From Roseibacillus sp. (GTDB lineage: Bacteria; Verrucomicrobiota; Verrucomicrobiia; Verrucomicrobiales; Akkermansiaceae): a stretch of 64,000 nt of DNA. How positions within the stretch are numbered: position 1 is the stretch's first letter; each line of letters starts with the position of its first letter. Under the pieces are notes generated by a model. That model was not told the origin of the DNA. It ran no database searches and worked only from the letters and a program-made list of their open reading frames with translations. The translations under genes were made by a program, and so were the position numbers. The stretch is taken from positions 1 through 64,000 of the forward strand of contig JAKVCR010000052.1 of assembly GCA_022448985.1 (NCBI GenBank). Reading direction: 5' to 3'. Shown here one piece after another: positions 55,851 to 60,339 of the stretch.

Positions 55851-56402
55851 TTACACCAATTCGTTGAGGAGATTCTCGTGGGGTCGCGGGATGACCACCT
55901 TATGCACGAGAAGGCCTTTTTCGGAGACCAGGTCGGCGCCGGCATCGACGGCGGCCTGGACCGCTGAAACATTGCCAGTGAGCGTAGCAAACGCCTTGCC
56001 GCCCAGGGCCATGGCGAGGCGCATTTCGATGAGCTGAACGTCGGCCGCCTTGGCTGCTGCGTCGGCCGCTTCAATCAGGGAGGTTACCGAGAAAGACTCG
56101 ATCACGCCCAGAGCGTCCAGTTTGTCTACCGGGTTGGCTCCCGAGATGGCGGGGAAGACACTTGGGTCGATGTTGGGGAGGACCGCGGAGTCGATGACCG
56201 CTCCCTCGCTGATCTCGATTCCCGCTGTGACCGAGGATTGTACGTCGGCCACTTCACCTCCCACCATGACCATGTATTTGCCCGAGCAGATGGAGCGGGC
56301 CAGCAACATCTCGACGTTGGCAGCCTTGAGCATCTCGTCGCTGGTGGAATACCCCGCCGCGATGCTGGAGAGTTCGACGATGCCGATGGCGTTCTTGGTC
56401 AT
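55851..56402 (-). CDS. pduT: Bacterial microcompartment shell protein, PduT-like tandem BMC
   Basis: A 183-residue protein with two BMC domains. The first (AIGIVELSSIAAGYSTSDEMLKAANVEMLL) and second (ALGVIESFSVTSLIEAADAAAKAADVQLI) both match the fold. It also carries Cys39 in ARSICSGKYMVMVGGEV, aligned by eye with the Cys of PduT that holds a [4Fe-4S] cluster at the trimer pore. PSVFPAISGANPVDK and the C-terminal KGLLVHKVVIPRPHE are highly PduT-like. Such trimers form part of a protein shell. The pduS-like gene ends only 12 bases upstream, and no other shell gene is nearby. Confidence 0.92.
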   Translation of the reverse strand: MTKNAIGIVELSSIAAGYSTSDEMLKAANVEMLLARSICSGKYMVMVGGEVADVQSSVTAGIEISEGAVIDSAVLPNIDPSVFPAISGANPVDKLDALGVIESFSVTSLIEAADAAAKAADVQLIEMRLAMALGGKAFATLTGNVSAVQAAVDAGADLVSEKGLLVHKVVIPRPHENLLNELV

Positions 56403-56414
56403 GGGGAGATCTGG

Positions 56415-57734
56415 TTAGATTTTTTCGATGGTGACGGCTCCGTTTACGGCAGTGACGGTCCCCTTGATGCTGGAGTGGATGTTGGCAGCCAGTTTTCCAT
56501 CCGGAATGTCTGCCACCAACTGGCCTGCTTGCACCTTGTCTCCTGCCTGGACCACCGCCCGGGATGGAGAGCCCACGTGCTGACTGAGCGGGAGGGTCAC
56601 CTTGCGGGCCTCGTAATTAATGTCGTGCCAGGGCGCGGGAACATTGTAGTTGGTGACGCCCAGTTTTTGCATGAGAGCCTTCAGGGGGACGTGCCGGCCG
56701 TCCACCATGGGATGCGCCTTGATTTCCGTAGTGGGTCCGAGCCAGCGTTCCATTCCGGCATCCTTGCGGTCCGCGATGGCCTGATCGCAGGCTTCCTTGG
56801 GAAAGAGATCCTCGGGGCAGGAGTAGAGCGTGCACAGGCCGCAGGCGCAGCAGAGGTCCGCCCACTTGCTCCAGTTGTGCTTGCCGCTGGCGGTGAACCC
56901 GAGGGTTCGCATCACCTTGTGCGGCTGGACATCATAACCTAACAGGTAGCGTGGGCAGAATTCCGTACAGTAGCTGCACTGGTCACAGGCGGACTTGCCG
57001 ATCCGGTGCATGGCCTTGTCGGGGGTGAGGACACGCTGGACCAGGCGGTGACTGGTAGGCAGAACGATGAGACCACCCGTGGTCTTGGTCACGGGCTGGC
57101 TGAGATCTTCGACCAGCTTTCCCATCATCAGTCCACCTACGAACACGGAGTAATCACCGGTGGTTGCGCCACCCGCGATATCGATCACTTCCTGCAGGGT
57201 GATCCCCACCGGGACAGCCATGCTCATGGGCGTTGCCACCTCTCCGGCCACCGTGAGGATCTTCTTTGTGACGGGGCGCCCCTCCATCGCCTCTGCGATG
57301 TTATAGAGGGTTTCAGAGTTGTGGACCACCGTCCCGACCTCAAGAGGGATACCACCGGGCGGAATGAGGCGCCCGGTGCATTCATAGACCAGGACGAATT
57401 CATCACCCGCAGGATAGTAGTCGCCAAAGAGTTGGACTTTGATTTTCGTGTTGCCGGTGGCCTCCTCCAGGATGGCCACAGCCTTGGTCCGCTTGGCCTT
57501 GATGCCGAAAATCGCCTTGTCGGCTCCAGTCGCCTTCATGGACAGCTCCATTCCCCTCAGGACCTGGGCGGCGTAGATCTCAGTGAGTTCGGCGTCCTTG
57601 TGCAGGAGGGGCTCGCACTCCGCGCCATTGGCAAGCACGTATTCGGCATCTGCTTCAAGCTTCACATGAGCGGGAAAGCCTGCGCCACCTGCACCCACCA
57701 CACCGGCTTCGCGGACTGCCTGAACGATCTCCAT
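56415..57734 (-). CDS. pduS: PduS/RnfC-like flavin and Fe-S electron-transfer protein
   Basis: A 439-residue soluble protein starting at the ATG at 57734 (MEIVQAVREAGVVGAGGAGFPAHVKL). The GAGGAGFPAHVK motif is the FMN/NADH-binding start of PduS and RnfC. Two [4Fe-4S] clusters are readable: C-x2-C-x2-C-x3-CP (DQCSYCTEFCPR, about residues 250-260) and C-x2-C-x2-C-x4-CP (CCACGLCTLYSCP, about 295-307). The C-terminus is a lipoyl-like sandwich (VVQAGDKVQAGQLVADIPDGKLAANIH). PduS reduces cobalamin in propanediol compartments and docks on PduT. The gene lies 12 bases before the pduT-like gene and 104 bases after mutS. Confidence 0.92.
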   Translation of the reverse strand: MEIVQAVREAGVVGAGGAGFPAHVKLEADAEYVLANGAECEPLLHKDAELTEIYAAQVLRGMELSMKATGADKAIFGIKAKRTKAVAILEEATGNTKIKVQLFGDYYPAGDEFVLVYECTGRLIPPGGIPLEVGTVVHNSETLYNIAEAMEGRPVTKKILTVAGEVATPMSMAVPVGITLQEVIDIAGGATTGDYSVFVGGLMMGKLVEDLSQPVTKTTGGLIVLPTSHRLVQRVLTPDKAMHRIGKSACDQCSYCTEFCPRYLLGYDVQPHKVMRTLGFTASGKHNWSKWADLCCACGLCTLYSCPEDLFPKEACDQAIADRKDAGMERWLGPTTEIKAHPMVDGRHVPLKALMQKLGVTNYNVPAPWHDINYEARKVTLPLSQHVGSPSRAVVQAGDKVQAGQLVADIPDGKLAANIHSSIKGTVTAVNGAVTIEKI

Positions 57735-57837
57735 ATGCCGCAAAGCAGCATCGTGGATGAGAATTTTGAGTCAAGGGTTGAGAATTTGCCCCAGTTGGCC
57801 CCACATCGCTCTTCAGGCTCCGCCGTGACCAGTGGTC

Positions 57838-60339
57838 TCAGGCGTTGAAGAGGTCCATCTGTGGGGAATCCGCATGCGGAAACGGTTTGTCTTTAGCTGG
57901 CTGCGGGGTCTTTGATTCTTGGCTTTGGGGCCGTCCGGCACTCATTTCCAGATGAGTAAGAATCTCCTTTGCGCGATCAATTATCGGGGCGGGGAGTCCA
58001 GCGAGGCGCGCGACCTGGATCCCGTAGCTCTTGTCGGCCGGTCCGGGGAGGATCTTGCGCAGAAAGATGATGTCTTCCTTCCACTCGCGCACCGCCACAT
58101 TGTAATTCTCGACCGCATCCCTGGTGTTGGCGAGGTCGCAGAGCTCGTGATAGTGGGTGGCAAAGAGGGCACGGCACTTGATGACGTCGTGGAGGTGCTC
58201 CGCTACCGACCAGGCGATGGAGAGGCCGTCGAAGGTCGCGGTGCCGCGACCGATTTCGTCGAGAATAACGAGGCTGCGGTCAGTTGCATTATTGACGATG
58301 AGGGAGGTCTCATTCATTTCCACCATGAAGGTCGACTGGCCGCGGGCGAGGTCGTCACTGGCACCCACCCGGCAGAAGATACGGTCGACCAGCCCGATGC
58401 GTGCCGATTCGGCTGGAACGTAGGCTCCGATTTGAGCCATCAGGACGATGAGGGCAACCTGACGGATGTAGGTTGATTTACCTGCCATATTGGGACCTGT
58501 GATGATGAGGAGGCGAGAGTTGTCGTGGTGAAGTTTGGAGTCGTTGGGGACAAACTTTTCCTCGACCAGGGTCTGCTCCAGAACGGGGTGGCGACCATTG
58601 ACGATTTCGAGGTCGCATGAGTCATCGAGGAGCGGCCGGGTGTGCTGGTAGAGTTGAGCGGTCTCAGCGAGGCCCAGCAGAACGTCGAGAGTAGCGAGGC
58701 CGTTGGCGCATTGCTGCAGTTCGTCGAGATGGGCCGTGACCGCACTGCGAAGTTTAAGGAACTCCTCGTACTCGAGCTGCTTAGCCCGCTCGTCAGCACC
58801 CAGAACCTTGCCTTCCACTTCCTTCAAGCCGGGCGTGATGTAGCGTTCGGCATTGGCCATGGTCTGCTTGCGCTGGTAGTCCTCAGGGACCTTGGAAAGG
58901 TTGGCTTTGGTGACTTCGATGAAGTAACCGAACACGTTGTTAAACTTGATCTTGAGTGAATCGATCCCGGTGCGCTCACGTTCGCTCTGCTGCATCTGGG
59001 CGATCCATTCCTTGCCATCGCGGGAGGCTGAGCGGAGGTCGTCAAGTTCCCCCGCGAATCCATCTCTGATGAGACCACCTTCCTTGGGTGAGACCGGCGG
59101 CTCGTCGACGAGAGCCTTCCCCAGTAACCCGACTAGTTCGGGGAACTCGTGGAGGTGATGGAGTATTTCTGTTTTCAGGGGGCAGGTCCCGGGTTGCCGG
59201 GCTGGGAGGGCATCCAAGTTAGTTCGGAGGGATGGGATCTGGGCGAGGGAGGCGTGCAGGGCCTGGAGGTCACGGGGATTGCCTGAACCCTGGGCCAGAC
59301 GGCCGGTACAGCGCTCGATATCGCGGATCTCCTTCAGGCTCTCGCGGCACTTGGCGAGGAGGAAGCTCTCGGCCAGGAAACTTCCGATAAGATCGTGCCT
59401 TGCTTCCAAGGTGCTGCGGTCCGAGATGGGATGGAGGATCCAGTCGCGCAGTTTGCGGGCGCCCATCGGAGTTGCGGTGCGGTCCAGGACCCCCAGAAGG
59501 GTGTGTTGGCGACCGGATCGCGAACTGACAAGATCGAGATTGTGCTGGGAGGCGGTGTCGATGGCAACTTGCTCGCCGACCTGCCGCACGGCTAATCCCC
59601 GGAGGTGATCACAGGAGCGGCGCAACTGGTAGGAAAGATAGTGCAGGATACCACCTGCTGCACTGAGGGCAGGTTGCATGCCGGAGCAGCCGAAGCCGTC
59701 GAGTGACTGAACCTTGAAATGGTCACGCAGGGTATGAATGGCCTGATCCAGGAGAAATGCGTATCCGTCGTAGGGCAGGCTGTGGGGAAGTCCGCCCAGT
59801 GACTGCAGTTGTTCGTCCGAGATGAGAAGTTCGGAGGGAGCCAGCCTGGTGAGCTCATCTTCCATTTGCTGGCGATCGGGAAACTCCGCGAGGGTGAACT
59901 CGCCGGTGGAGTGATCAACCACCGCGAGGCCGAAGGTGTCCCGATGTTCACACACCGCAGCCAGGTAATTGTGCCGGCGATCATCAAGCAGAGAGAGGTT
60001 GTCGATGGTGCCTGCCGAGATGATCTGGGAAATTTCCCGGTCCACGATCTTGCCAGGAACCGGTTCGGAGGTCTGCTCCCCGATGGCTACCCGCCTGCCC
60101 TGCTTGATGAGCTTGGCGATGTAGTTTTCCGCAGCGTGGTGAGGGACCCCACACATGGGGACTCCGCCCCGCTTGGTAAGGGCTACGTTGAGCAGTCCAG
60201 CGGCCTCCCTGGCGTCCTCGAAAAACATTTCGTAGAAGTCACCGAGTCGGAAGAAGAGGAGCACATCGTCAGGAAGCGAGCGGCGCATCGCCTGATACTG
60301 CGCCATCATGGGGGTGAGCTTGCCTTCCTTGCCGGCCAC
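57838..60339 (-). CDS. mutS: DNA mismatch repair protein MutS
   Basis: An 833-residue MutS that recognises base mismatches and recruits MutL. N-terminal mismatch-recognition motif (TPMMAQYQAMRRSLPDDVLLFFRLGDFYEMF with the Phe-x-Glu mismatch probe) near residues 10-40. The ATPase has Walker A GPNMAGKSTYIRQVALIVLMAQIGAYVPA near 635, RVGASDDLARGQSTFMVEMNE, VILDEIGRGTATFDGLSIAWSVAEHLH and THYHEL. Length and order are those of MutS1. MutL is not in the window. The 94-base gap before the PduS TTG-proximal start leaves room for a separate promoter. Confidence 0.98.
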   Translation of the reverse strand: MAGKEGKLTPMMAQYQAMRRSLPDDVLLFFRLGDFYEMFFEDAREAAGLLNVALTKRGGVPMCGVPHHAAENYIAKLIKQGRRVAIGEQTSEPVPGKIVDREISQIISAGTIDNLSLLDDRRHNYLAAVCEHRDTFGLAVVDHSTGEFTLAEFPDRQQMEDELTRLAPSELLISDEQLQSLGGLPHSLPYDGYAFLLDQAIHTLRDHFKVQSLDGFGCSGMQPALSAAGGILHYLSYQLRRSCDHLRGLAVRQVGEQVAIDTASQHNLDLVSSRSGRQHTLLGVLDRTATPMGARKLRDWILHPISDRSTLEARHDLIGSFLAESFLLAKCRESLKEIRDIERCTGRLAQGSGNPRDLQALHASLAQIPSLRTNLDALPARQPGTCPLKTEILHHLHEFPELVGLLGKALVDEPPVSPKEGGLIRDGFAGELDDLRSASRDGKEWIAQMQQSERERTGIDSLKIKFNNVFGYFIEVTKANLSKVPEDYQRKQTMANAERYITPGLKEVEGKVLGADERAKQLEYEEFLKLRSAVTAHLDELQQCANGLATLDVLLGLAETAQLYQHTRPLLDDSCDLEIVNGRHPVLEQTLVEEKFVPNDSKLHHDNSRLLIITGPNMAGKSTYIRQVALIVLMAQIGAYVPAESARIGLVDRIFCRVGASDDLARGQSTFMVEMNETSLIVNNATDRSLVILDEIGRGTATFDGLSIAWSVAEHLHDVIKCRALFATHYHELCDLANTRDAVENYNVAVREWKEDIIFLRKILPGPADKSYGIQVARLAGLPAPIIDRAKEILTHLEMSAGRPQSQESKTPQPAKDKPFPHADSPQMDLFNA

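Follow-up and report, generated by a model that had tools for sequence, protein, structure and literature searches.

A PduS-like/PduT-type gene pair in Roseibacillus sp. as the probable satellite redox module of a PVM-type microcompartment

The closest described relatives of the locus analysed here are the PduS and PduT proteins of Pdu microcompartments. Homologous PduS is known to bind FMN and two [4Fe-4S] clusters, to oxidise NADH and to bind PduT (PMC2982820, PMC6325248), whose own cluster was measured at +99 mV (PMC2982820); the clusters of both proteins are oxygen-sensitive (PMC6325248). Use of the two proteins free of B12 is already known from glycyl-radical compartments (PMC6325248, PMC8667426), and for that of Bilophila, whose locus has no alcohol dehydrogenase, NAD+ regeneration through electron export has been proposed (PMC8667426). 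The role of PduS and PduT apart from B12 chemistry, as well as the question whether a microcompartment shell conducts electrons, remain open in the literature (PMC6325248). Pdu and glycyl-radical (GRM) loci offer several possible uses for electrons, whereas the compartment of the Planctomycetes/Verrucomicrobia (PVM) type involves neither a radical enzyme nor B12. Since similar PVM loci occur with the pair, with a lactate/malate dehydrogenase (Ldh) or with neither, the question becomes approachable by comparing close relatives.

The window, i.e. the whole stretch of 64,000 nucleotides that was analysed, belongs to contig C239 of a Roseibacillus sp. genome (G000; assembly of 4.6 Mb in 290 contigs, 97% complete, MAG contamination 5.6%). 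The features considered here were the following:

55851..56402, minus strand: PduT-type tandem-BMC shell protein (BMC-T), 183 aa, pore Cys39, with domain and structure matches
56415..57743, minus strand: PduS-like NADH:FMN/two-[4Fe-4S] oxidoreductase, 442 aa counted from TTG 57743
57744..57837, minus strand: gap of 94 bp between mutS and pduS, presumed promoter
57838-60339, minus strand: mutS, on the same strand as pduS

A previous sequence-only reading had placed a PduT-like tandem-BMC protein with pore Cys39 and a PduS-like partner at 55851-57743, and both identifications held. Profile searches detected two PF00936 domains in the BMC-T, and the nearest solved chains were PduT or PduT-like shell proteins (3nwg, E 2.7e-54; 3pac; 3n79). 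Residue 39 is the cysteine of S-I-C39-S-G-K-Y and aligns with the C-P-G-K-Y cysteine of the solved PduT-like chains; C39-S-G-K-Y satisfies the pore motif C-P/S/A-G-K/R/S-Y/F, and the cysteine was kept in 112 of 112 alignable relatives. As the score against the NCBIfam equivalog TIGR02526 stayed under its cut-off (132 bits, 250 needed), the protein is called PduT-type rather than a strict equivalog.

The pduS-like gene ends 12 bp ahead of the BMC-T start. Its product matched PF01512 (FMN/NADH), SLBB (PF10531), Fer4_17 (PF13534) and RnfC_N (PF13375), each above cut-off, and carries the cluster motifs C253xxC256xxC259xxxC263 and C298/C299, C301, C304, C309, so that the FMN/NADH motif and the two 4Fe-4S motifs read earlier from the sequence were recovered. 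The glycine-rich NADH/FMN motif, GAGGAGFP, is conserved across 117 relatives, in which the cluster-cysteine positions were likewise kept, single substitutions aside. Together with the invariant pore cysteine, this conservation indicates that the motifs of the pair are not due to chance. The C-terminal 'lipoyl-like domain' was upheld as an RnfC-type barrel-sandwich domain and not as Biotin_lipoyl itself, the profile of which scored below its cut-off. Identity amounted to about 40% over 94% of the query with annotated PduS and to about 30–32% with RsxC, which places the protein, by primary sequence, nearer to PduS than to RnfC/RsxC. Its AlphaFold model (mean pLDDT 70.8, Fe-S region mostly <50) supports a predicted RnfC/NuoF-like fold and gives no support for the cluster geometry. 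Translation more likely starts at ATG 57734 (MEIVQAV, kept in relatives) than at TTG 57743, and no encapsulation peptide was apparent on the protein.

The pair is bordered by mutS on one side and by two genes on the other, relatives of which also flank the pair in the congeners G037 and G046. This isolated position, as well as a broken copy in the relative G192 (locus L138, where PduS and BMC-T are both split across frames, either a broken copy or assembly errors), might point to a decaying relic. We give this reading almost no credence and discarded it on the grounds of conservation: the frames are full-length, the cysteines are invariant, PduS is 83–90% identical between the window and three congeners, and the flanking genes are partly conserved.

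No other microcompartment gene had been noticed near the pair, and this absence turned out to be wider than claimed, since PF00936 and PF03319 profiles detected no further BMC gene on the whole of C239 (134,715 bp). Likewise, the PduL, aldehyde dehydrogenase (AldDH), aldolase and acetate kinase of the genome's PVM locus, described below, matched nothing in the window, in line with the reported lack of PduL, aldehyde dehydrogenase and aldolase genes nearby. The same reading had taken the pair for a portable module serving a compartment encoded elsewhere, and BMC profile searches of the genome did locate one: contig C59 carries three BMC-H, three BMC-P and a class II aldolase and is the sole main BMC locus. 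The genes are ordered PduL, BMC-H, BMC-H, acetate kinase, BMC-H, BMC-P, AldDH, BMC-P, BMC-P, class II aldolase. Also present are a divergent DeoR regulator and, at the contig start, a kinase fragment. Such a gene set corresponds to the PVM type for fucose and rhamnose (PMC4207490), to which the C59 locus is assigned by gene content. Shell genes besides the BMC-T thus do exist in this genome. C59 was also considered as MAG contamination, which its tetranucleotide correlation with the window argues against (0.82–0.84, compared with 0.83–0.88 between parts of the window and 0.53–0.64 for the loci of distant genomes).

The partner enzymes known from other compartments were sought as well. PduS could reduce cobalamin for an enzyme that depends on B12, as in Pdu compartments, and it is about 40% identical to annotated cobalamin reductase PduS; however, neither diol dehydratase (PF02286) nor EutB (PF06751) was found in the 13 pair genomes searched, G000 included, with positive controls (Ilyobacter for the former), and the 64-kb window holds no cobalamin riboswitch. 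This role is therefore highly improbable, the protein is termed PduS-like instead of Pdu cobalamin reductase, and no complete Pdu or Eut operon with its own diol dehydratase stands behind the pair elsewhere in the genome. Electrons might otherwise flow inwards, the pair providing low-potential electrons for an enzyme of the lumen, for instance the activase of a glycyl radical enzyme (GRE). This has been proposed for glycyl-radical compartments (PMC6325248), and genome G052 has, besides the pair, a GRE gene within the PVM region, but GRE genes (PF02901, controls positive) were absent from the other 12 pair genomes tested, G000 among them, and the PduT potential of +99 mV is much too positive for that purpose (PMC2982820); we regard it as very unlikely. 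Both B12 reduction and GRE feeding were thus dropped after their partner enzymes had been sought in G000 and not found. G052, the single family member with both the pair and Ldh, harbors the GRE gene at G052:C4:254524-255891, adjoining its PVM locus, and two more GRE genes elsewhere.

With an incomplete shell set at the pair, one main PVM locus elsewhere in the genome, and no diol dehydratase, EutB or GRE, the pair qualifies as a satellite of the PVM compartment. We consider it probable that it is the satellite module of the C59 compartment, exporting luminal NADH electrons through the shell and recycling NAD+. In the PVM lumen, the aldolase would release lactaldehyde, which AldDH would oxidise to lactyl-CoA, yielding NADH. 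As the only recognised NADH-producing step there, this reaction would call for NADH re-oxidation inside the shell, a task that in many relatives an Ldh-like enzyme would perform by reducing a second lactaldehyde. We infer that the PduS-like protein would be located against the shell's inner surface and pass NADH electrons to FMN and on to its two [4Fe-4S] clusters, its cofactors and PduT binding being assigned by analogy with the homologues. From there, the electrons could reach a [4Fe-4S] cluster held in the BMC-T trimer pore by three Cys39, and finally a cytosolic acceptor. Provided that an outside electron acceptor exists, lactaldehyde could be oxidised completely, no half being lost as propanediol. 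With a PduT cluster at +99 mV, outward flow from NADH would be downhill; the oxygen sensitivity of the clusters is awkward for the proposal in an aerobic host. If true, it would explain why half of the lactaldehyde is not lost in an aerobic fucose/rhamnose organelle, and the pair would offer a natural part of two genes with which to wire shells.

The association of the pair with BMC loci, which had been put forward as a check, was borne out across the class. A BMC-T match was found in 36 of 286 genomes, all 36 of which also encode BMC-P vertex proteins, compared with a base rate of 97 in 286. Five of the 36 matches were weaker or broken, four of these belonging to another BMC type, and a PduS gene accompanied the BMC-T in 31 of 31 genomes with a strong PduT-like BMC-T. 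Eight genomes, G027 and seven of these 31, carry the pair within or next to the PVM locus itself. It is located directly 3' of the PVM aldolase in G027, from the same genus as the window, and 9, 9 and 37 bp past the aldolase in G203, G335 and G246, respectively; it stands between DeoR and PduL in G258 and G269, and adjoins DeoR in G293 and G148. The pair might also serve another compartment or the cytosol, the PVM link being coincidental. Its satellite position beside mutS, and its occurrence alone in Ignavibacteriota, Bacteroidota and Acidobacteriota (among the matches listed), would be compatible with this; nevertheless, the single main BMC locus of G000 and the eight PVM-associated copies make it distinctly unlikely.

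Other tandem-BMC arrangements were encountered in the same searches. A second satellite type devoid of the pore cysteine occurs in PVM genomes (L047, L048, L049, L050 in G052, G053, G013, G045), that of G052 adjoining, on sequence inspection, a dihydrodipicolinate-synthase-like gene. A small BMC locus composed of BMC-H, BMC-P, AldDH and a distant BMC-T, devoid of PduS, was found in G100, G115, G145 and G328 (L150–L153).

In related genera, the slot past the PVM aldolase that the pair can occupy holds a lactate/malate-dehydrogenase-like gene (PF00056/PF02866), of a family predicted to supply the alcohol dehydrogenase function and to regenerate NAD+ in PVM compartments (PMC4207490). No orthologue of this Ldh was found anywhere in G000 by a genome-wide family search. 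Genome-wide searches within the genus of the window detected the pair but no Ldh in five genomes (G000, G027, G037, G046, G077) and Ldh but no pair in five others (G016, G054, G062, G070, G083), while G091 has no BMC and neither pair nor Ldh. Were the genomes independent, which is not the case, p for the five/five split would be 0.008. In a tree of concatenated PVM proteins, the Ldh clade nests with strong support inside the pair-bearing group and the outgroup genera carry Ldh, implying at least two switches. In this Ldh clade ldh is itself a lone satellite gene, placed in its tree in a manner consistent with vertical inheritance within the family.

Among 118 PVM genomes, 29 have the pair only, 45 Ldh only, 7 both and 37 neither (Fisher p = 0.0005, uncorrected). 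Each of the two traits changes 16 times on the AldDH tree, and phylogenetically independent contrasts went the opposite way in about 3.2–4.5 cases and the same way in 0.2–0.5 (median p 0.125–0.25), in agreement with an exchange as to direction, not significantly. These data suggest that pair and Ldh are interchangeable ways of recycling NADH, and lend indirect support to NAD+ recycling as the role of the pair. A strict either/or rule was rejected in view of the 7 genomes with both modules, the 37 with neither and the non-significant contrasts; neither module is obligatory, given these 37. Nine of them have another Ldh/Mdh-like gene past the aldolase and 28 no recognised substitute, for which reason a third known module replacing Ldh was also discarded.

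The exchange bears on another reading, in which the pair is part of the PVM shell but mainly does something other than recycle NAD+, the Fe-S pore for example acting as a plug or as a redox/oxygen sensor that alters permeability and PduS setting its redox state. The invariant pore cysteine would suit such a function, the seven genomes with both pair and Ldh indicate that their roles need not be identical, and satellite shell proteins have been suggested to alter permeability (Sutter et al., PMC8217296). A plug or sensor, however, predicts neither exchange with an NAD-dependent dehydrogenase within one genus nor occupancy of the same post-aldolase slot, and we hold it to be unlikely.

Further dehydrogenase genes were observed past PVM aldolases. 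In G126 (L155 13425-15754), a malate-dehydrogenase-like gene is followed by a zinc alcohol dehydrogenase, the N-terminus of which resembles an encapsulation peptide, a candidate further set for NAD+ recycling. Malate-dehydrogenase-like genes occupy the same position in G142, G230 and G262.

A scan of named genomes yielded at least 80 relatives of the PduS-like protein, from Ignavibacteriota, Bacteroidota, Acidobacteriota, Verrucomicrobiota, Elusimicrobiota and further groups. Among the matches listed, 76 of 80 have a BMC-T within 3 kb. Flanks of 5 kb or more were available on both sides in 39 of them, and in 33 of these 39 comparison with PVM proteins, which divergent BMC genes could escape, revealed no further BMC gene. 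The genus of the window forms its own lineage in the PduS tree, apart from the main Verrucomicrobiota clade; Vicinamibacteria branch inside a Verrucomicrobiota clade, and Armatimonadota and Actinomycetota inside an Acidobacteriota clade, suggesting that the pair may have moved between phyla, although the sequences come from MAGs in which mis-binning is possible. In five Elusimicrobiota loci (L243, L250, L251, L252, L257), PduS and BMC-T stand within a main locus containing PduL, BMC-H, BMC-P, AldDH and a second BMC-T. We tentatively propose, at slightly less than even confidence, that one kind of organelle has two interchangeable outlets for NADH, a fermentative one (Ldh, at the cost of half the substrate) and one that exports electrons to respiration (PduS with an Fe-S pore), that lineages switch by gaining or losing one- or two-gene cassettes, and that the Fe-S cassette is a cross-phylum metabolosome plug-in.

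The presumed promoter gap between mutS and pduS contains TTGACT at 57774-57769, a candidate promoter element, and an inverted repeat, TCAACCCTTGA, at 57781-57771 (minus strand), of putative function. The form TCAACSCTTGA (TCAA-C[CG]C-TTGA) is also found shortly ahead of satellite pduS and, in some cases, of satellite ldh genes (L044, L045, L312, L316); it would be expected by chance 0.06 times in the window, but the match was noticed post hoc and is a lead only. Another palindrome, TTGACTAGTCAA, lies just upstream of pduL in the C59 locus (L009 1865-1876) and in L051, L055–L058 and L073, where it overlaps a -35-like TTGACT and is a candidate DeoR operator. It was not found upstream of pduS, and comparison of the pduS and pduL upstream regions disclosed no operator common to the pair and the main PVM locus, the best shared 18-mers being equalled by many shuffles.

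PduS, PduT, PVM loci and satellite loci are thus all known already, as is the idea of NAD+ regeneration for one glycyl-radical compartment (PMC8667426). The consulted parts of PMC4207490 and PMC8217296 contain no redox satellite for PVM compartments. Three points appear new with respect to the literature searched, whose supplementary tables may list the pair undiscussed: the pair as a module of PVM compartments, its occupancy of the Ldh slot, and its exchange with Ldh among close relatives. The window pair shares with Pdu PduS/PduT of Citrobacter and Salmonella the four PduS domains, the two tetracysteine motifs, adjacent genes and a tandem-BMC partner with a pore cysteine; it differs in the genomic absence of diol dehydratase, its location apart from the main locus and a PduS identity of about 40%. 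Glycyl-radical compartments (GRM1, GRM1b, GRM3, GRM5; Bilophila) also use the pair free of B12, whereas G000 encodes no GRE and the signature enzyme of the compartment served is a class II aldolase. The C59 locus has the gene set of described PVM fucose/rhamnose compartments; unlike these, G000 has no Ldh and, in a satellite, encodes a BMC-T and a PduS-like protein. Satellite and satellite-like BMC loci (Axen 2014, PMC4207490; Sutter 2021, PMC8217296) similarly combine an incomplete contiguous shell set with one other main locus. In contrast to plain satellites, the pair also holds a redox partner gene, which makes it 'satellite-like' in the 2014 wording (PMC4207490).
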